The notes under the pieces: generated by a model | The model's database searches: none | What the model saw: only the letters and a program-made list of their open reading frames with translations | What the model was told of the DNA's origin: nothing | Assembly: GCA_023954195.1 (NCBI GenBank) | Contig: JAMLIK010000001.1 | Span: 1,538,628 to 1,602,627 of the forward strand | DNA: 64,000 nucleotides | Direction of reading: 5' to 3' | From: Xanthobacteraceae bacterium | GTDB taxonomy: Bacteria; Pseudomonadota; Alphaproteobacteria; Rhizobiales; Xanthobacteraceae | Position numbers and translations under genes: made by a program | Shown here: piece after piece, positions 10,177-62,990 of the stretch | How the letters are laid out: each line of letters begins with the position of its first letter | Numbering within the stretch: the first letter of the stretch is position 1

Positions 10177-11367
10177 TTACCGCTTGTTGCGGATCGGGAT
10201 GTCCATGTCCTCGATCTTGATTTCGCGGACCGGCTCGTTGATCGCCCAGGCGACATTGGGATCGACCTTGACGCGGAAGTGATACATGCTTTGCAGCGCC
10301 TGATGGTCCTCCTTACGGAAGATCATCTTGCCCTTCGGGGTATCGAACTCCATCCCCTCCATCGCCGCGATCAGCTTCTCGGTATCGGTCGATTTCGCCG
10401 TCTCCACGGCCTTCACCGCCGCCATCGCCGCGGCGAAACCGCCCGCGGTGAAGAAGTCCGGCGGCGAGTTGTAGCGCTTCTTATGCTCGGCCACGAGCCA
10501 GTCGTTCACCGGGTTCTTCGGGATGTCATAGTAGTAATAGGTCGATCCTTCCATGCCCGGCAGCCGCTTGTAGGCGGCCAGCGCCGGCAGGATGTTGCCG
10601 CCGGTGGACAGTTCGATACCGTAGCGCTTCAGGTCCATGTCCTGGAGCTTGGTCAGCGGATCGCCGGCGCCGGCCCAGATCACCCAGATGATTTTCTTGC
10701 CGGGCTTGTCCTTGAGCGCATCGATCAGGCGCTGGCCGACGGCGGTGAAATCGGTGGTGTTGGTGGGCACGTATTCTTCCGCGGCCAGCGTCGCGCCGGT
10801 CTTGGCCAGCGCCTCTTTGAAGGCGGCGACGCCGTCGCGGCCGAAGGCGTAATCCTGGCCCAGCGTCGCGACCGTGACGCCCGGCTTGCCGATGGCGACG
10901 GCATTGGAAATCGCGTCCTGCGACGAGTTGCGCGCGGTGCGGAAGATGTAGCGGTTCCACTTGTCGCCGGTGATCTGATCCGCCACCGCCGGCTCGACGA
11001 TCAGGATCTTCTTGTTTTCCTCGGCGATCGGCAGATCGGCCAGCGCCGCCGCCGACGAGGTGGTGCCGATGGCGATATCGACCTTGTCGTCCTGATAGGC
11101 TTCGGCGAGCGCCGCCTTCGACAGGTCCGGCTTGCCCTGGTCGTCCTTGGTGATAATGACGATCTTGCGACCGTTCACCATCATGGTCCCCTTCGTGGCA
11201 TATTCCAAGCCGAGCCGCAGCCCCGTCTCGGTCTGCTTGGCATAGGCTTCGAGCGGCCCGGTCTTGCCGTAGATCAGGCCGATCTTCAGGTCCTCGGCAT
11301 GGGCCGGCATGGCGGCGCCCGCCAGACACACGGCGGCCAGTGCGAGAAGGGAGTGTGTGCGCATCAT
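10177..11367 (-). CDS. Periplasmic binding protein of Liv-type ABC importer
   Basis: 396 residues with a Sec signal peptide (MMRTHSLLALAAVCLAGAAMPAHA, cleavage after AHA near residue 24). The mature part begins EDLKIGLIYGKTGPLEAYAK, the usual start of the peripla_BP_6 (LivK/amide-binding) fold, and continues through IGTTSSAAALADLPIAEEN and YVPTNTTDFTAVGQRL. It captures the solute in the periplasm for the permeases encoded to the left. The AMD/amidase-regulator-like fold also binds aromatic and aliphatic acids, and the operon context with acyl-CoA enzymes favours such a ligand, but this is inference. An ACAD gene lies 106 bases to its right on the same strand. Confidence 0.9.
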   Translation of the reverse strand: MMRTHSLLALAAVCLAGAAMPAHAEDLKIGLIYGKTGPLEAYAKQTETGLRLGLEYATKGTMMVNGRKIVIITKDDQGKPDLSKAALAEAYQDDKVDIAIGTTSSAAALADLPIAEENKKILIVEPAVADQITGDKWNRYIFRTARNSSQDAISNAVAIGKPGVTVATLGQDYAFGRDGVAAFKEALAKTGATLAAEEYVPTNTTDFTAVGQRLIDALKDKPGKKIIWVIWAGAGDPLTKLQDMDLKRYGIELSTGGNILPALAAYKRLPGMEGSTYYYYDIPKNPVNDWLVAEHKKRYNSPPDFFTAGGFAAAMAAVKAVETAKSTDTEKLIAAMEGMEFDTPKGKMIFRKEDHQALQSMYHFRVKVDPNVAWAINEPVREIKIEDMDIPIRNKR

Positions 11368-24066: not shown

Positions 24067-25341
24067 TCAGGCGTAGCCCTTGCTTTTCTTCCACTGGGCT
24101 TCGAGTTCGAAGATCTGCTTCCAGTCGCCGGCCTTGACCTCCGGCACGTAGGGCTCGGTCGGGATGGTGGTGCCCCAGCCGATGGCATAGCCGACAATCG
24201 TATGATCCTCGGCCCGCATGGTCACGGTGCCGTCCGCGCCGAACGGGCACTTGACCGTCAGTCCGGGCAAGACTTCGGCGAGTTTCTTGCCATCGGCCGA
24301 GCCGGCCTTCTTCGCCGCCTCGTTGAGCAGCATGATCGCGGTGGCGTTCTGCCACGACCAGTTGGTCGGATATTCCTTGTATTTCGCCTTGTAGGCATCG
24401 CCCCACGCCGCGTTCTCCGCCGTGGCGGGGAAGGTCTTGATGTAGCGGTTTCCGGAGTGGATGCCCTTGGGCAGGTTCTTGACCACCGTCAGCGCGGTGT
24501 AGTCGGCCATGTTGACCGCGAACACCTCCATCTGGGTGAACATCGCGTAGAGGTTGGCCTGATCGATGAAGGAGGTCAGGTCGCCGCCCCACAGCGCCGA
24601 GTAAAGCGCCTGCGGCTTGGCCTGGAGGATGCGGGTGATGACCTCGGTATAGTCAGGCTGGAACAGTTTCGGCCAGGTTTCGCTGATGATCTCCACGTCC
24701 GGCGCGAAATGCTTGAGGTAGGTGACGAACTCCGCCGTGGTGTCGCGGCCGTAGGCATAGTCCGGCGAACAGGTCGCCCACTTCTTCAGCCCCTTGGCCT
24801 TGGCGATCGCGGCTGCGTAGTTGCCGCCGGCGATCGAGTCGTGAATGCCCTGCCGGGCGCAACGGAAGGCGTTGGGAATCCGCTGCTTGGGATCCGCCGT
24901 CAGCGACGACGCCTCCGAGCAGGTGTGAACGCACAGCACGCCGAGATCGCGAGCCACCTCCTGCACGGCGAACGATCCCGACGACGCCTCGCCGTCGATA
25001 ATCATCTCACAGCCGTCGGTGTTGACGAGTTCGCGGGCGATGCGCGCGGCTTCCTGCGGCTGGCCCTTGGAATCGCGCACCACCATCTCGATCGGACGCC
25101 CGGCGAGGCCGCCGGCGGCGTTCAGCTTCTCGACCTCGATCATCACCCCGTTGCGCGACGACGTCCCGAGTTGCGCGACCCGACCCGACAGGATGGTCGG
25201 CATGCCGATCTTGATGGCTTTGGCCTGGGCGCGCGCCACCCACGGCGCGGCGACCGTCATCGCGCCGGCCCCCATCAAGGCCAGCGTCGCGCGCCGGTTG
25301 ATGCCCATTTTTGACTCGCCAGTTTTTGACTCGATTGTCAT
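24067..25341 (-). CDS. ABC importer substrate-binding protein, second system (Tat-like signal)
   Basis: 424 residues. GGGAGGA upstream favours the ATG at 25341; an in-frame ATG at 25308 (MGINRRATL) would give a shorter leader but has no ribosome site. The leader INRRATLALMGAGAMTVAAPWVARAQA has a twin-arginine followed by a hydrophobic stretch and an AQA cleavage site, suggesting Tat export. The mature part AKAIKIGMPTILSGRVAQLGTSSRNGVMIEVEKLNA is of the peripla_BP_6 type (LivK/amide-binding). It also carries several Cys residues (CEMIIDG, VCVHTCSE, FRCARQ), unusual for a soluble binder. First gene of the second importer; the operator at 25453-25473 lies upstream. Confidence 0.9.
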   Translation of the reverse strand: MTIESKTGESKMGINRRATLALMGAGAMTVAAPWVARAQAKAIKIGMPTILSGRVAQLGTSSRNGVMIEVEKLNAAGGLAGRPIEMVVRDSKGQPQEAARIARELVNTDGCEMIIDGEASSGSFAVQEVARDLGVLCVHTCSEASSLTADPKQRIPNAFRCARQGIHDSIAGGNYAAAIAKAKGLKKWATCSPDYAYGRDTTAEFVTYLKHFAPDVEIISETWPKLFQPDYTEVITRILQAKPQALYSALWGGDLTSFIDQANLYAMFTQMEVFAVNMADYTALTVVKNLPKGIHSGNRYIKTFPATAENAAWGDAYKAKYKEYPTNWSWQNATAIMLLNEAAKKAGSADGKKLAEVLPGLTVKCPFGADGTVTMRAEDHTIVGYAIGWGTTIPTEPYVPEVKAGDWKQIFELEAQWKKSKGYA

Positions 25342-42837: not shown

Positions 42838-43320
42838 TCAATCACGCGGCGGCTTCAGTTCGAGCGGCACCGAGGCGGCATATTTGGGGTTTTGCAACAC
42901 CAGCGAGGTGCGCACGTTGCGGACATGCGGCGCGGCGGTCAGTTGCGTGACGAAGGACTGGAACGTCGCCATGTCGGGGGCCACGCATTTGAGGATGAAA
43001 TCCACCTCGCCCGACAGCATCCAGCATTCGCGCACCAGCGGCGCGCGGCGGACGAAATCCTCGAAGGCGCGCAGATCCGCGTCCGCCTGGCTCGACAGGT
43101 GCACCGAGGCGAAAACGGTGACGTCATAACCGAGCTTGCGCGGGTCCAGCAGCGCGCGATAGCCCTGGATATAGCCCTCCTCCTCCAGCGCACGGACACG
43201 ACGCAGGCACGGCGGCGGCGAAATTCCGACGCGCTTGGCCAGCTCGACGTTGGTGATCCGGCCGTCGGCTTGAAGCTCACCCAGAATTTTCAGATCGATC
43301 TCGTCAAGGCGCTTGGACAC
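42838..43320 (-). CDS. Lrp/AsnC family regulator
   Basis: 160 residues. HTH at about 4-60: LDEIDLKILGELQADGRITNVELAKRVGISPPPCLRRVRALEEEG, followed by the RAM ligand domain (YRALLDPRKLGYDVTVFASVHL to VAPDMATFQSFVTQLTAAPHV). Lrp-type proteins bind amino acids and control amino-acid and transport genes. Divergent from trxB with a 303-base gap (43321-43623) that holds no gene; a weak promoter-like pair TTGCAT / TACACT at 43492-43519 might serve trxB. Confidence 0.94.
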   Translation of the reverse strand: MSKRLDEIDLKILGELQADGRITNVELAKRVGISPPPCLRRVRALEEEGYIQGYRALLDPRKLGYDVTVFASVHLSSQADADLRAFEDFVRRAPLVRECWMLSGEVDFILKCVAPDMATFQSFVTQLTAAPHVRNVRTSLVLQNPKYAASVPLELKPPRD

Positions 43321-43623: not shown

Positions 43624-44589
43624 ATGTCGACGCCCATCCACGCCAAGGTTGTGATTATCGGTTCGGGACCGGCCGGCTATACCGCCGCCATCTATGCCGC
43701 CCGCGCGATGCTGGAGCCGGTATTGCTCCAGGGCATCCAGCCCGGCGGCCAGCTCACCATCACCACCGACGTCGAGAATTATCCCGGCTTCGCCGACGTG
43801 GTCCAGGGACCGTGGCTGATGGAGCAGATGGAGCGGCAGGCCGCCCATGTCGGCACCCGGATCGTCACCGACCTGGTGACCGGGCTCGATCTCGGGCAGC
43901 GGCCGTTCCGGCTTACCTGCGACAGCGGCGACATCTATCTCGCGGAAACCGTGATCCTCGCCACGGGCGCGCAGGCGCGCTGGCTCGGGCTGCCGTCCGA
44001 GGACGCCTTCAAGGGCTTTGGCGTGTCGGCCTGCGCCACCTGCGACGGCTTCTTTTATCGCGGCAAGGATGTGATTGTGGTCGGCGGCGGCAACACCGCC
44101 GTCGAGGAAGCGCTGTTCCTGACCAACTTCGCCGCCAAGGTCACCGTCGTGCATCGCCGCGACCATTTCCGCGCCGAGCGCATCCTGCAAGACCGCCTGT
44201 TCAGGAATCCCAAGATCGAGGTGGTATGGGACAGCGCGATCGACGAAATCCTGGGCGACAAGGAACCCGTCAAGGTCTCCGGCGTCCGGCTGAAGAACGT
44301 CAAGACCGGGGCGCTCACCCAACTCCCCGCCGACGGCGTCTTCATCGCCATCGGCCATGCGCCGGCGACCGAGCTGGTCGCGGGCCAGCTCAAGCTCAAA
44401 CCCTCCGGCTATGTCGAGGTGGCGCCGCATTCGACCGCGACCTCGGTGCCCGGCGTATTCGCCGCCGGCGACGTCGCCGACGAGACCTATCGGCAGGCGG
44501 TCACGGCCGCCGGCATGGGCTGCATGGCCGCCCTCGAAGCCGAACGCTTTCTTGCCCACAGCGCCACCGAACGGGCCGCAGCGGAGTAG
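43624..44589 (+). CDS. trxB: Thioredoxin reductase
   Basis: 321 residues from ATG 43624 (MSTPIHAKVVIIGSGPAGYT). Earlier in-frame codons lack support; AAGGGG lies upstream. FAD site GSGPAGYTAAIYAARA (about 14-29), redox-active CATC (Cys137 and Cys140), NADPH site GGGNTAVEEALFL (about 151-163) and C-terminal GVFAAGDVADETYRQAVTAAG. It reduces thioredoxin with NADPH in the cytoplasm. The LysR gene starts two bases past its stop, so the two are probably co-transcribed, as in other Rhizobiales. Confidence 0.97.
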   Translation: MSTPIHAKVVIIGSGPAGYTAAIYAARAMLEPVLLQGIQPGGQLTITTDVENYPGFADVVQGPWLMEQMERQAAHVGTRIVTDLVTGLDLGQRPFRLTCDSGDIYLAETVILATGAQARWLGLPSEDAFKGFGVSACATCDGFFYRGKDVIVVGGGNTAVEEALFLTNFAAKVTVVHRRDHFRAERILQDRLFRNPKIEVVWDSAIDEILGDKEPVKVSGVRLKNVKTGALTQLPADGVFIAIGHAPATELVAGQLKLKPSGYVEVAPHSTATSVPGVFAAGDVADETYRQAVTAAGMGCMAALEAERFLAHSATERAAAE

Positions 44590-44591
44590 AC

Positions 44592-45515
44592 ATGCCTCGA
44601 TCTCGCGACAGTTTATCGGACATGGACTGGGATAAGTTGAAGGTGTTTCACGCCGCCGCCGAAGCCGGCAGCTTCACCCACGCCGGCGAGCAACTGGGGC
44701 TGTCGCAATCGGCGGTCTCGCGCCAGGTCAGCGCGCTGGAACAGGAACTGTCGGTCTCGCTGTTCCACCGCCATGCCCGCGGCCTGATCCTGACCGAACA
44801 GGGCGACCTGCTGTTTCGCACCGCGCATGACGTCTTCATGCAGTTGCAGGCGGCGCGGGCCAAATTGACCGACAGCCGCGAGCGCCCCAGCGGCGATCTC
44901 AAGATCACCACGACGCCGGGGGTCGGCATTCACTGGCTGATCCCGCGCCTTGGCGAGTTCACCACGCTGTATCCCGAAATTCGCATTTCGCTCATCGTCA
45001 CCGACGAGGATCTCGATCTGTCGATGCGCGAGGCCGACGTCGCGATCCGCACCCGCAAGCCGACCCAGCCCGACCTGATCCAGCGCAAGCTGTTCGCGAT
45101 GGGCTTCCACGCCTATTGCTCGCCGGAATACATCAAGCATTTCGGCACGCCGCGCACGCTGGAGGATCTCGACGGCCATCGCATCATCCTGCTCAGCGAC
45201 ATGCAGGTGCCGCAACATCTGCAAAACCGCAACTGGCTGGTCGAAGCCGGCCGCAACGGCTCCGGCCCGCGCGAGGCGTTCTTCAAGGTCAACAACATCC
45301 TCGGCCTGGTGCGCGCCTGCCAGCAGGGACTCGGCATCGCCGCGCTGCCCGACTATCTGGTCGAGGAGAACAATCGGCTGGTTCAACTGTTCAGCGAATC
45401 GGATTCGATTCAACTCGATACGTATTTTGTCTATCCCGAGGAGTTGAAGTCAGTGGCGCGGGTGCAGGCGTTCCGCGATTTCGTCGTCAGCAAGGCGCAG
45501 CGCTGGCCGTCCTGA
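44592..45515 (+). CDS. LysR family regulator, LsrB/VtlR-like
   Basis: 307 residues from ATG 44592; an ATG at 44622 (MDWDKLKVFHAAAEAGSF) would give 297 residues and is the more conserved-looking start. HTH FHAAAEAGSFTHAGEQLGLSQSAVSRQVSALEQEL (about 19-53) and a periplasmic-binding-like effector domain (TTTPGVGIHWLIPRLGEF onward). Gene order trxB-LysR-small RNA is that of LsrB in Sinorhizobium and VtlR in Brucella, regulators that activate the neighbouring abcR RNA and affect cell-envelope and stress genes. The orthology is inferred from this synteny, not from sequence search. Confidence 0.88.
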   Translation: MPRSRDSLSDMDWDKLKVFHAAAEAGSFTHAGEQLGLSQSAVSRQVSALEQELSVSLFHRHARGLILTEQGDLLFRTAHDVFMQLQAARAKLTDSRERPSGDLKITTTPGVGIHWLIPRLGEFTTLYPEIRISLIVTDEDLDLSMREADVAIRTRKPTQPDLIQRKLFAMGFHAYCSPEYIKHFGTPRTLEDLDGHRIILLSDMQVPQHLQNRNWLVEAGRNGSGPREAFFKVNNILGLVRACQQGLGIAALPDYLVEENNRLVQLFSESDSIQLDTYFVYPEELKSVARVQAFRDFVVSKAQRWPS

Positions 45516-45541
45516 ACACCGGCCCGCACACCTTCGGTCGC

Positions 45542-45558
45542 CGCATGACTGACATGCG
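45542..45558 (+). promoter_or_regulatory. LysR-type dyad upstream of the small RNA
   Basis: CGCATG-ACTGA-CATGCG, a perfect six-base-pair inverted repeat with five-base spacer, centred about 55 bases upstream of the predicted transcript start, the usual activation position for LysR regulators. The LysR gene ends 27 bases before it. Confidence 0.6.
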
Positions 45559-45568
45559 ACTTGTGTTG

Positions 45569-45598
45569 TTGCCGCGACGCGCTGACGAGGCCCATAAT
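45569..45598 (+). promoter_or_regulatory. Promoter of the AbcR-like small RNA
   Basis: TTGCCG (45569-45574), 18-base spacer, CATAAT (45593-45598). Predicted start near 45605. The imperfect -35 fits with activation by a LysR protein at the adjacent dyad. Confidence 0.6.
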
Positions 45599-45604
45599 CA
45601 CACC

Positions 45605-45740
45605 GTACTGAGTGACCGCATCGTGCATCTGTCCCCCTCCTCTAGCGGTGCGGGCGCTCAGTTATCCCTCTTGGAAGGTGATTGTGTCGGCCTCACATGG
45701 CCAATGCCTCAAGCCGGGCTCCCTGGAGCCCGGCTTTTTT
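45605..45740 (+). ncRNA. AbcR/alpha-r15-like trans-acting small RNA
   Basis: About 135 bases between a promoter and a strong terminator in a gene-free gap (45516-45960). The first stem-loop pairs ACTGAG (45607-45612) with CTCAGT (45657-45662) and CCGCA with TGCGG; its loop exposes CCCCCTCCTCT (45633-45643), an anti-Shine-Dalgarno sequence. A second C/U-rich stretch, ATCCCTCTT, follows, then the terminator hairpin. This layout and the position next to a trxB-linked LysR gene are those of the alpha-r15 (AbcR) RNAs, Hfq-dependent repressors of ABC transporter mRNAs including Liv-type binding proteins. The three Liv systems in this window are natural target candidates. Confidence 0.7.
45712..45740 (+). 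terminator. Rho-independent terminator of the small RNA
   Basis: AGCCGGGCTCC (45712-45722) and GGAGCCCGGCT (45725-45735), an 11-bp stem with a tiny loop, followed by six T residues (45735-45740). It lies 200 bases past the LysR stop, so it belongs to the RNA gene rather than to LysR. Confidence 0.92.
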
Positions 45741-45846
45741 CTGTGAAGTCCCGTTTTTCCGTCGAATGGCTGCTTTTGCCCGCGTCGTCCGCTTCGGCCT
45801 GGATGCGTCGGATCACCGATCACCGACTAGTCCTAACGCAAAAGAA

Positions 45847-45907
45847 AGCAAGCCTTGGCGCAAAAACAGCAAGTCCTGGCGCGAAAAAGCAAGTCTTGGC
45901 GCGAAAG
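45847..45907. repeat. Three tandem copies of a 20-21 base unit
   Basis: Units at 45847-45867, 45868-45887 and 45888-45907, consensus AGCAAG(T/C)C(C/T)TGGCGC(A/G)AAAA. They lie between the small RNA terminator and the ParA terminator, are purine-rich on the plus strand and not coding in any convincing frame. Confidence 0.75.
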
Positions 45908-45933
45908 AGAAAACGCACGTCGCGCGTGCGTTT
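45908..45933 (-). terminator. Probable terminator of the ParA-like gene
   Basis: On the minus strand AAACGCACG-CGCGA-CGTGCGTTT, a nine-base-pair stem ending in T residues followed by CTCTTTC. It lies 28 bases past the ParA stop. Confidence 0.65.
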
Positions 45934-45960
45934 GAAATCGCGGTGGGGCGCGGCGAAAGG

Positions 45961-46641
45961 TTACGCCGCCTGCTTGTGCATGGCCCCGCTTGCGGAAGCG
46001 CTGCCCCGGATGGCCTTGACCGAGCGATCGATCGCCGACCACAGCCGGCTGATTTCCGACGTCGCGCGCCCGTCCGAATCGTATTCCTGCGCGCCTTCGC
46101 CATGCGCCAGCGCCAGCAACAGGTCGGCGCGGTTGGTGATCTGACCGCTCCACACCGGCGCGCGGAATTTGGCGAGTTGCTCGCGCGCGACGGTCACGAT
46201 CGGACTTTCGGAGCCTTCGCGCAGCGCCGGCGCACCGTTCATCACCACGGCGTAGGGCTTGCGCGCCGAACGGCAGATCCGGATGGTTTCCTGCACGGCG
46301 TTGACGTCGAACACGCCGGGCCGGGCCGGAACGATCACCATGGTGGCGTTGCGCACCGCGTCCTCGACCACGGCCGAGATATTCGGCGGCGTATCGATGA
46401 ACACCCACTCATAACCCTCGCGCTTGGCGGCCGCGACGATCTCGCTCACCGAACGGCCGGCGATTTTCAGCGGCGGCTCGTTGGTGCCGCGCAGCTTATG
46501 CCACAGCGTCAGCGACCCCTGCGGATCGGCATCGACCAGAAGACATGGACGCGACGGCTTGTGGACCTGAGCCGCAAGATGCGCCGTCAAGGTGCTTTTC
46601 CCCGAGCCTCCCTTGCGGGATGCAAAAACAATGACGTTCAT
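45961..46641 (-). CDS. ParA/MinD-type ATPase (orphan)
   Basis: 226 residues. Deviant Walker A FASRKGGSGKSTLTAHLAAQ (about 6-25), switch I LLVDADPQGSLTLW (about 34-47) and switch II VFIDTPPNISAVV (about 80-92). No ParB gene and no parS-like site is nearby, so it is not the chromosomal partition ATPase; short orphan ParAs position chemotaxis, storage-granule or other cellular cargo in alphaproteobacteria. The protein is a little shorter than typical ParA (about 250). It converges with the LysR-small RNA unit. Confidence 0.9.
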   Translation of the reverse strand: MNVIVFASRKGGSGKSTLTAHLAAQVHKPSRPCLLVDADPQGSLTLWHKLRGTNEPPLKIAGRSVSEIVAAAKREGYEWVFIDTPPNISAVVEDAVRNATMVIVPARPGVFDVNAVQETIRICRSARKPYAVVMNGAPALREGSESPIVTVAREQLAKFRAPVWSGQITNRADLLLALAHGEGAQEYDSDGRATSEISRLWSAIDRSVKAIRGSASASGAMHKQAA

Positions 46642-61757: not shown

Positions 61758-62990
61758 ATGCTTGCAGGACAAAAACTGAGAATCGTCGCGATGTCGACGG
61801 TGGTCGCGGCCTTTGCCGTGACCAGCGGCAGTGCCCTTGCCCAGAAAAAATACGATCCCGGCGCGAGCGACACCGAAATCAAGATCGGCAACATCATGCC
61901 GTATAGCGGGCCGGCGTCGGCCTACGGCATCATCGGCAAGGCCCAGGCCGCCTATTTCCAGATGATCAACGAAAAGGGCGGCATCAACGGGCGCAAGGTG
62001 AACTTCATCTCCTATGACGACGCCTACAGCCCGCCAAAGGCCGTGGAGCATGCCCGCAAGCTGGTCGAGAGCGACGAGGTGCTGCTGATCTTCAGCCCGC
62101 TGGGAACGCCGTCCAATACGGCGATCCAGAAGTACATGAACGCCAAGAAGGTGCCGCAACTGTTCGTCGCCACCGGCGCGGCCAAGTGGAACGATCCGAA
62201 GCACTTCCCCTGGACCATGGGCTGGCAGCCCAACTATCAGGACGAAGCCCGCATCTACGCCAAATATGTTCTGGCGAACAAACCCGGCGCCAAGATCGCG
62301 GTGCTGTACCAGAACGACGACTTCGGCAAGGACTACGTCAAGGGCTTCAAGGAGGGACTCGGCGACAAGGCGAAGTCGATGATCATCGTCGAGGAGAGCT
62401 ACGAGCTGTCCGAGCCGACCATCGACTCCCATATCGTCAAGCTGAAGGCCAGCGGCGCCGACACCCTGCTGAACTTCACCACGCCGAAGTTCGCGGCGCA
62501 GACCATCAAGAAGATGGGCGAGCTGGAATGGAAGCCGCTGCACATCATCACCAACGTCAGCGTCTCGGTCGGCGCGGTGATGAAGCCGGCCGGCTTCGAA
62601 TACGGTCAGGGCATCCTGTCGGCGGCCTACCTGAAGGACGGCGCCGACCCGCAGTGGAACGACGATCCGGACATGAAGAAGTGGATCGCCTTCATCGACA
62701 AGTACATGCCGGGCGCCAACAAGGCCGACAGCGGCCTGGTGTTCGGCTACGGCTCGGCGCAGACCCTGCACAAGGTGCTGGAGATGGCCGGCGACAACCT
62801 GACCCGCGCCAACGTCATGAAGCAGGCCGCCAGCCTGAAGGACTTCAAGACCGACGTCGCCCTGCCCGGCATCCTCATCAACACCAGCGCGACCGACTTC
62901 GCGCCGATCCAGCAGGTGAAGATGATGCGCTTCAAGGGCGAGAAGTGGGAACTGTTCGGCGACGTGATTAGCAGCGACGCCAAACACTGA
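61758..62990 (+). CDS. Periplasmic binding protein of the third Liv-type importer
   Basis: 410 residues with a Sec signal peptide (to about residue 29, ending GSALAQ). The mature protein starts KKYDPGASDTEIKIGNIMPYSGPASAYGI, the peripla_BP_6 pattern, and continues with GKAQAAYFQMINEKGGINGRK and SPLGTPSNTAIQKYMNAKKVPQLFV. In Rhodopseudomonas such binders next to pim genes take up dicarboxylates and fatty acids, as I recall, which would suit this operon. AAAAAGGAG lies upstream; a strong terminator follows. Confidence 0.92.
   Translation: MLAGQKLRIVAMSTVVAAFAVTSGSALAQKKYDPGASDTEIKIGNIMPYSGPASAYGIIGKAQAAYFQMINEKGGINGRKVNFISYDDAYSPPKAVEHARKLVESDEVLLIFSPLGTPSNTAIQKYMNAKKVPQLFVATGAAKWNDPKHFPWTMGWQPNYQDEARIYAKYVLANKPGAKIAVLYQNDDFGKDYVKGFKEGLGDKAKSMIIVEESYELSEPTIDSHIVKLKASGADTLLNFTTPKFAAQTIKKMGELEWKPLHIITNVSVSVGAVMKPAGFEYGQGILSAAYLKDGADPQWNDDPDMKKWIAFIDKYMPGANKADSGLVFGYGSAQTLHKVLEMAGDNLTRANVMKQAASLKDFKTDVALPGILINTSATDFAPIQQVKMMRFKGEKWELFGDVISSDAKH

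Follow-up and report, generated by a model that had tools for sequence, protein, structure and literature searches.

A probable single-copy, sequence-divergent AbcR1 orthologue encoded next to an LsrB/VtlR regulator in a Xanthobacteraceae bacterium

Background

AbcR small RNAs turn down nutrient importers in relatives of the bacterium studied here; in S. meliloti, LivK is a proven target of AbcR1 (PMC3712013). The same paper reports the family alpha-r15, to which AbcR1 belongs (RF02345), from Rhizobiaceae and Brucellaceae, always as multiple copies. The AbcR motifs of S. meliloti are CUCCUCCC and UUCCCCUC (PMC8844928), those of Brucella M1 CUCCCA and M2 GUUCCC (PMC5461406). For the regulator VtlR, the box GCAT-N3-TG-N3-T was described in Brucella and Agrobacterium (PMC7486931), and in the S. 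meliloti promoter PabcR1 the box occupies positions -61 to -49 (PMC8844928).

According to PMC7143759, a few chromosomal small RNAs reach the Bradyrhizobiaceae. In the open literature searched, AbcR was not found to be described for Bradyrhizobium, Rhodopseudomonas or Afipia, and the term AbcR is absent from the main texts of two B. japonicum papers. Here, we describe a locus from a stretch of 64,000 nucleotides of a Xanthobacteraceae bacterium (genome G000); this whole stretch is called the window below.

Arrangement of the locus

The features of the locus are listed with their positions in the window; A2 is an alignment of 33 Bradyrhizobiaceae-type RNAs.

43624-44589, + strand: trxB, thioredoxin reductase, upstream of lsrB (TIGR01292, 408 bits, cutoff 343)
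44592-45515, + strand: LysR regulator of 307 aa, by sequence an LsrB/VtlR orthologue (PF03466 and PF00126; PDB 9hh1_A)
45543-45557, + strand: putative LsrB/VtlR box GCATGACTGACATGC, a dyad with its centre at about -54; the published consensus part is 45543-45555
45569-45598, + strand: sigma-70-type promoter TTGCCG-18-CATAAT (1 found versus a mean of 0.1 in shuffles)
45604-45740, + strand: predicted small RNA gene, the start being deduced from the -10 box and the distance to the LsrB box
45607-45662, + strand: stem-loop 1 with a 20-nt C/U-rich loop (double-sided changes in 11 of 17 pairs, 33 sequences)
45632-45643, + strand: anti-Shine-Dalgarno motif 1, UCCCCCUCCUCU, in the loop of stem-loop 1 (10 of 12 columns invariant in A2)
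45664-45672, + strand: second C/U stretch AUCCCUCUU at the site of AbcR aSD2 (near-invariant, exact in 30 of 33)
45689-45702, + strand: stem-loop 2, GGCC-GGCC (97.7% of cells paired, no double changes)
45711-45736, + strand: intrinsic terminator hairpin of 11 pairs (100% of cells paired, double changes in 3 of 8 pairs)
45961-46641, strand opposite to the RNA: ParA-like gene, the next likely gene

A preliminary description of the window had named the order trxB-LysR-RNA, a LysR dyad at about -55, a promoter, a stem-loop exposing CCCCCUCCUC, a second C/U-rich stretch and a strong terminator. All of these elements were recovered at the positions given above, and CCCCCUCCUC is indeed displayed in the loop of the 5' hairpin. 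The gap that separates the RNA terminator from the end of the ParA-like gene contains three copies of AGCAAGYCYTGGCGC, which start at 45847, 45868 and 45888 (45847-45902).

With a probability of roughly 0.85, we take the segment to encode a small RNA that acts in trans, namely an LsrB-activated, single-copy, sequence-divergent orthologue of AbcR1 which lowers the translation of importers. The neighbouring LsrB/VtlR would bind the box at -61 to -49 and activate the sigma-70 promoter; the resulting RNA of about 137 nt would fold into a 5' hairpin with the CCCCCUCCUC loop, the second C/U stretch, a small hairpin and the terminator; and the C/U stretches would pair with Shine-Dalgarno regions, whereby the translation of importer mRNAs, those of Liv-type binding proteins included, would be lowered. 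The effect on importers, Liv-type ones among them, is proposed by analogy with AbcR1, and only tentatively.

The neighbouring regulator

In 79 of 80 named loci trxB lies upstream on the same strand; the remaining locus (L221) starts 62 nt before the LysR gene. A comparison of the window LysR protein with solved structures gave 9hh1_A as best match (E = 1.1e-107, residues 11-305) versus 1.6e-38 for the next LysR structure. The entry is labelled as LysR family only; because its cysteines at positions 144, 236, 244 and 273 agree with the numbering published for A. tumefaciens LsrB (PMC11975290), we infer that 9hh1_A is this protein. The proposal of an LsrB/VtlR-like LysR was thus well founded, and judged by its sequence the window protein is an LsrB/VtlR orthologue. 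Such an orthologue is present in 144 of 149 genomes of the family (E ≤ 1e-90); of 81 genomes sampled from the order, 74 have one (E ≤ 1e-60).

The redox pair C144/C273 is not found in the window LsrB, which has V150 and V280 at those places and A251 at the place of C244; C243 corresponds to C236, and there is a further cysteine, C176. C176 and C243 are cysteines in all 110 Bradyrhizobiaceae-type LsrB sequences, and C243 is a cysteine in 60 of 80 further family loci, for which the C-terminus alone was visible. As far as these sequences tell, the Bradyrhizobiaceae-type clade lacks the LsrB redox pair. We dropped the interpretation that the redox cysteines were lost in this clade, since none of the five LsrB cysteine places carries a cysteine in the 27 other loci of the order either; therefore, the C144/C273 pair does not define the wider LsrB family. 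The LsrB of locus L127 (genome G059) has cysteines at places 150, 251 and 280.

A gene for an Lrp/AsnC-type regulator (PF01037) is located at 42838-43320, divergent to trxB. Leucine sensing is common among Lrp-type proteins, and such a gene is of interest beside a possible Liv regulator.

Conservation of the RNA

A DNA search of 61 genomes matched 16, including all 8 of the own genus; two of the matches are weak (E of about 3e-4 and 6e-4), and one of these two spans the terminator alone. The RNA core, defined by one pattern, occurs downstream of the LysR orthologue in 84 of 110 family loci, and in 80 of these 84 the core is preceded, at a distance of 88-126 nt, by a box (relaxed patterns). The covariance model R1 was built from 33 Bradyrhizobiaceae-type RNAs only. 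It matches 79 of 80 named loci (E = 1.5e-38 to 2.9e-20), which stem from Bradyrhizobium, Rhodopseudomonas, Afipia, Tardiphaga and MAGs, each time after the LysR gene and on its strand; the sole locus without a match, L179, ends at a contig edge. In the own genome, R1 matches the RNA with 146.6 bits at G000:C1:1584231-1584367 (E = 8.4e-35), and the next match elsewhere has E = 1.09, which indicates a single copy. The alignment A2 omits the near-duplicates L031, L032, L036 and L043 as well as the divergent RNAs L026, L041, L047 and L051, which the core pattern missed; R1 still finds these four at 87-94 bits. Some of the loci behind the wider model R2 had initially been retrieved by means of Rfam; within the family R2 matches 125 of 148 genomes, and within the order 46 of 121.

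Two further groups of loci were noticed. In 11 family loci (L109-L111, L113-L117, L120, L122, L124) the distance from box to core is 92-97 nt and not about 120 nt. These short-form loci keep TTCCCCTC, and in those that were folded (L109, L114, L120) stem-loop 1 is short and the anti-Shine-Dalgarno loop is missing. In the Rhizobiales loci L160, L165, L168 and L177 another C/U-rich stretch, CTCCCTCCCC, is found downstream of the LysR orthologue; three of the four contain CCCTCAC, and three have a GCAT-N7-ATGC box upstream.

Relation to alpha-r15 and AbcR

The preliminary description had assigned the RNA to the AbcR/alpha-r15 type and had suggested a search with the Rfam model. This search did not bear the assignment out: RF02345 (cutoff 40 bits) gave no match in the window at the gathering threshold, none at E ≤ 10 in 45200-46100, and none in the own genome; the low score goes together with the very strong conservation described above. 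Elsewhere in the family the best scores were likewise sub-threshold, with 26.4 bits for L090 and 23.6 bits for L094 (two of 20 loci scanned) and 29.3 bits for G029 (four family genomes scanned). When 121 genomes of the order were scanned with RF02345, 17 of them yielded a total of 23 places, 8 of which score above the cutoff. Because alpha-r15 passes its cutoff in just 4 of the 121 genomes, we did not use Rfam as the sole judge.

In contrast to the Rfam score, gene order and architecture resemble AbcR. The adjacency of trxB and lsrB/vtlR, a box at -61 to -49 of the deduced start, a 5' hairpin with a C/U loop and a terminator are all present; the second motif is paired in the consensus fold. 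Moreover, R1 matches 19 of the 23 RF02345 loci of the order at the same place, with E-values between 1.4e-9 and 1.1e-3, and recovers 5 of the 8 alpha-r15 places above the Rfam cutoff. The four loci missed are L142 and all three of G059, the strongest ones. R2 matches 16 of the 23 places, 8 of which had been used to build it, and it too misses the loci that R1 misses; therefore, the link to the G059-type form runs via intermediates. In G059, which is probably Rhizobiaceae-like, alpha-r15 copies with 127 and 119 bits lie directly downstream of the LysR orthologue and have boxes upstream.

In other genera of the family, 26 RNAs were aligned; UCCUCCC occurs in 20 of these and UUCCCCUC in 22, and neither occurs in any of the 33 Bradyrhizobiaceae-type RNAs. 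In the set A1, CUCCUCCC is found in none of 59 RNAs and UUCCCCUC in none of the 33 Bradyrhizobiaceae-type ones. The window RNA does not contain the AbcR letters CUCCUCCC and UUCCCCUC; it has UCCCCCUCCUCU and AUCCCUCUU instead. Nor does it share the presence of multiple copies per genome, as the own genome has a single copy. Since R1 matches 19 of 23 alpha-r15 loci despite the missing Rfam match, we regard the window RNA as very probably a single-copy, divergent AbcR1 orthologue outside alpha-r15 as Rfam defines it. Of the initial assignment, the AbcR type is thus retained, whereas membership in the Rfam family is not.

It is improbable, though less so than the other alternatives considered below, that the locus encodes an LsrB-driven small RNA which is not homologous to AbcR1, is likewise placed and has acquired its anti-Shine-Dalgarno loop by convergence. 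The absence of an alpha-r15 match, the differing loop and second motif, and the occurrence of anti-Shine-Dalgarno loops in several unrelated RNAs (PMC3927594) would be explained in this way; two coincidences would have to be accepted in turn, i.e. the agreement of R1 with most alpha-r15 loci and the graded series of RNAs within one family, which have gene order, box, spacing, core and terminator in common.

Other known RNAs were considered as well. The BjrC RNAs of B. japonicum gave no match at the position of the RNA, neither in the window nor in five named loci; a weak match of BjrC68 (RF02353) lies elsewhere in L193. SorX (RF02784, cutoff 46.6) gave weak scores over the RNA, namely 14.1 bits in the window, 37.5 in L064 and 23.4 in L207. 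An identity with SorX was rejected, the sub-threshold matches being taken as a presumed likeness of terminators. The match in L064 (positions 736-803, E = 7e-6) covers the 3' half of the AbcR-like RNA.

Promoter and regulator box

The published consensus GCAT-N3-TG-N3-T occurs exactly at 45543-45555, i.e. at -61 to -49 of the deduced start at 45604, which is 6 nt past the -10 box. By itself the motif is common (4 matches in the 64-kb window versus 7.4 expected), and for this reason weight is placed on its conserved position: in 76 of 79 named relatives the first base of the published box falls between -62 and -59 relative to the RNA start, as against an expectation of 0.0016 per locus computed from the rest of the same loci. 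In the model the RNA start was placed by means of the box distance; therefore, the independent part of this observation is the constant spacing of box, -10 box and RNA core. Among 79 relatives, TTG at -35 to -33 is conserved to 92-98% and CATA-T at -11 to -6 to 93-98%, except for position -7. The genome-wide uniqueness of the exact palindromic box was discarded as evidence, because about 0.25-0.5 sites are expected from simple composition. With one mismatch allowed, 40 palindromic sites were found in the genome versus 3 for a backward control.

As the RNA is encoded on the same strand and starts 89 nt past the LysR stop codon, it might instead be the 3' UTR and terminator of a trxB-lsrB mRNA, perhaps processed, and no independent gene. 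This is very improbable, given that a conserved -35/-10 pair and the LsrB box lie between the stop codon and the RNA, and that in S. meliloti separate starts have been mapped for AbcR1 and AbcR2 (PMC7143759).

RNA structure

Folding of 45600-45743 gave a z-score of -4.56, and none of 200 shuffles was as good. The paired fraction of cells in A2 is 95.7%, whereas shuffles reach 90.9% and slid versions no more than 48.7%; the consensus structure was derived from A2, which is also the alignment tested, so that the comparison with slid versions favours the structure. Double changes occur in 14 of 35 pairs of A2 versus 6.2 in shuffles, none of 500 shuffles being as high. Little or no variation is seen in the loop UCCCCCUCCUC and in the stretch CCUCUUGGAAGGUGA. 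In the consensus fold the second C/U stretch is paired with the following GGAAGGUGAU, and covariation is absent from this helix 2; the stretch may thus fold into a small hairpin with GGAAGGUGAU. In summary, the 5' hairpin and the terminator are supported by covariation and the remaining elements by sequence. A leader, an attenuator or a small coding gene can be practically dismissed: a 342-codon open frame does run across the region (45116-46144), but one-base and two-base gaps interrupt the transcript in A2, and the ParA-like gene, which is next, lies on the other strand.

Predicted pairing with Liv-type importers

The three Liv-type binding proteins noted in the window were confirmed by PF13458. 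Across the 4.2-Mb genome the Liv binding-protein family is matched 40 times, which corresponds to about 0.6 per 64 kb; three of the matches fall in the window. For a genome of this size, 40 matches are a large set.

Duplex energies were computed at the ribosome sites of 178 genes, which were taken from our own approximate gene calls and comprised 44 binding-protein genes (30 of 40 Liv, 5 of 5 SBP_bac_5, 9 of 9 NMT1) and 134 controls. The preliminary description had raised the idea that the RNA pairs with the three Liv importers of the window and unites them in one post-transcriptional circuit. Pairing is predicted at their ribosome sites, but the ranks among the 178 genes are ordinary: 18 for 24067-25341, 45 for 10177-11367 and 61 for 61758-62990 with the loop, and 44, 99 and 58, respectively, with the second stretch. 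We hold such a circuit to be possible and go no further, because the predicted pairing of its three genes is ordinary.

For the 30 Liv genes as a group, the second stretch gave a median of -13.45 versus -10.5 kcal/mol in the 134 others (p = 1.6e-5), a comparison to which we give little weight, since start calls are poorer in the controls than in the binding proteins and bias it. None of 200 shuffled stretches was as good, and the effect persists when 16S pairing and GC are allowed for (t = -3.5) as well as among genes with a strong Shine-Dalgarno sequence (p = 0.006). The effect of the loop is weak (-15.0 versus -13.3, p = 0.045; 12 of 200 shuffled loops were as good) and is gone after correction for 16S pairing and GC (t = -1.2) and among strong Shine-Dalgarno genes (p = 0.46). 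Liv genes have strong Shine-Dalgarno sequences in general, their 16S pairing being -10.0 versus -6.55.

RNA loss and number of Liv importers

Some relatives which are poor in Liv importers have lost the RNA. In 30 chosen genomes, the 7 without an R2 match have 2-7 Liv matches and the 23 with one have 14 to at least 48; these genomes are not a random sample but were picked partly for a missing RNA, and the losses are confined to two genera. G028, G068, G022 and G099, which have no R2 match, are among the genomes left out of the Liv count. The genus g20 contains several stages: in G161 the RNA (L038) is intact and the Liv matches number 48 or more; G112 (L057) keeps box, promoter and loop, has lost the core (R1 29.6 bits, no R2 match) and has 5 Liv matches; G026, G091, G130 and G146 are without the RNA and have 2-3. 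In the loci L060-L063 of this genus the RNA is gone and lsrB is retained, and in L057 the RNA is half eroded. In the genus g68, G103 and G124 are without the RNA and have 7 Liv matches each. G034, with 35 Liv matches, has an R2 match away from lsrB.

A possible, though rather doubtful, history would be the following. The LsrB-AbcR circuit may be ancestral in Rhizobiales, its first task having been the throttling of Liv-type importers, and the cysteine pair and the doubled RNA may be later additions of Rhizobiaceae and Brucellaceae. The Bradyrhizobiaceae-type single RNA, with both pairing motifs rewritten, would then be discarded when the Liv importers disappear; most of the g20 genomes examined, in which the regulator outlives the RNA, would be instances of this.

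Comparison with known systems

If the preferred reading of the locus as that of an AbcR1 orthologue is correct, a well-studied post-transcriptional control of nutrient uptake extends to a large soil clade comprising Bradyrhizobium, Rhodopseudomonas, Afipia and Tardiphaga. In this clade the Rfam model found no such RNA in the genomes tested, and none is described in the open literature searched. A seed alignment, a covariance model and a prediction of the regulator box are supplied, and the loss of the RNA in Liv-poor genomes offers a natural test of its purpose.

Three described systems are closest. The model suhB/mmgR (RF00519), which belongs to the Rfam clan of ar15, has no match in the window; it matches the short-form RNAs L113, L114 and L120 downstream of the LysR orthologue with sub-threshold scores of 25.8-34.4 bits (cutoff 41). 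AbcR2 of Brucella abortus is activated by the orthologous LysR regulator VtlR (PMC7486931) and likewise has two C/U motifs, whereas the motif sequences and the single copy in the window genome are different. From AbcR1 of S. meliloti and A. tumefaciens, the window RNA differs in its loop (CCCCCUCCUC instead of CUCCUCCC), its second motif (AUCCCUCUU instead of UUCCCCUC), its length (about 137 nt versus 121 nt), the missing Rfam match and its occurrence as a single RNA without a tandem AbcR2. In common with AbcR1, however, it has the adjacent lsrB/vtlR gene, the box at -61 to -49, the sigma-70 promoter, the 5' hairpin with an anti-Shine-Dalgarno loop, the second C/U motif and the terminator hairpin; with A. 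tumefaciens it also shares trxB upstream, in the order published in PMC7486931.
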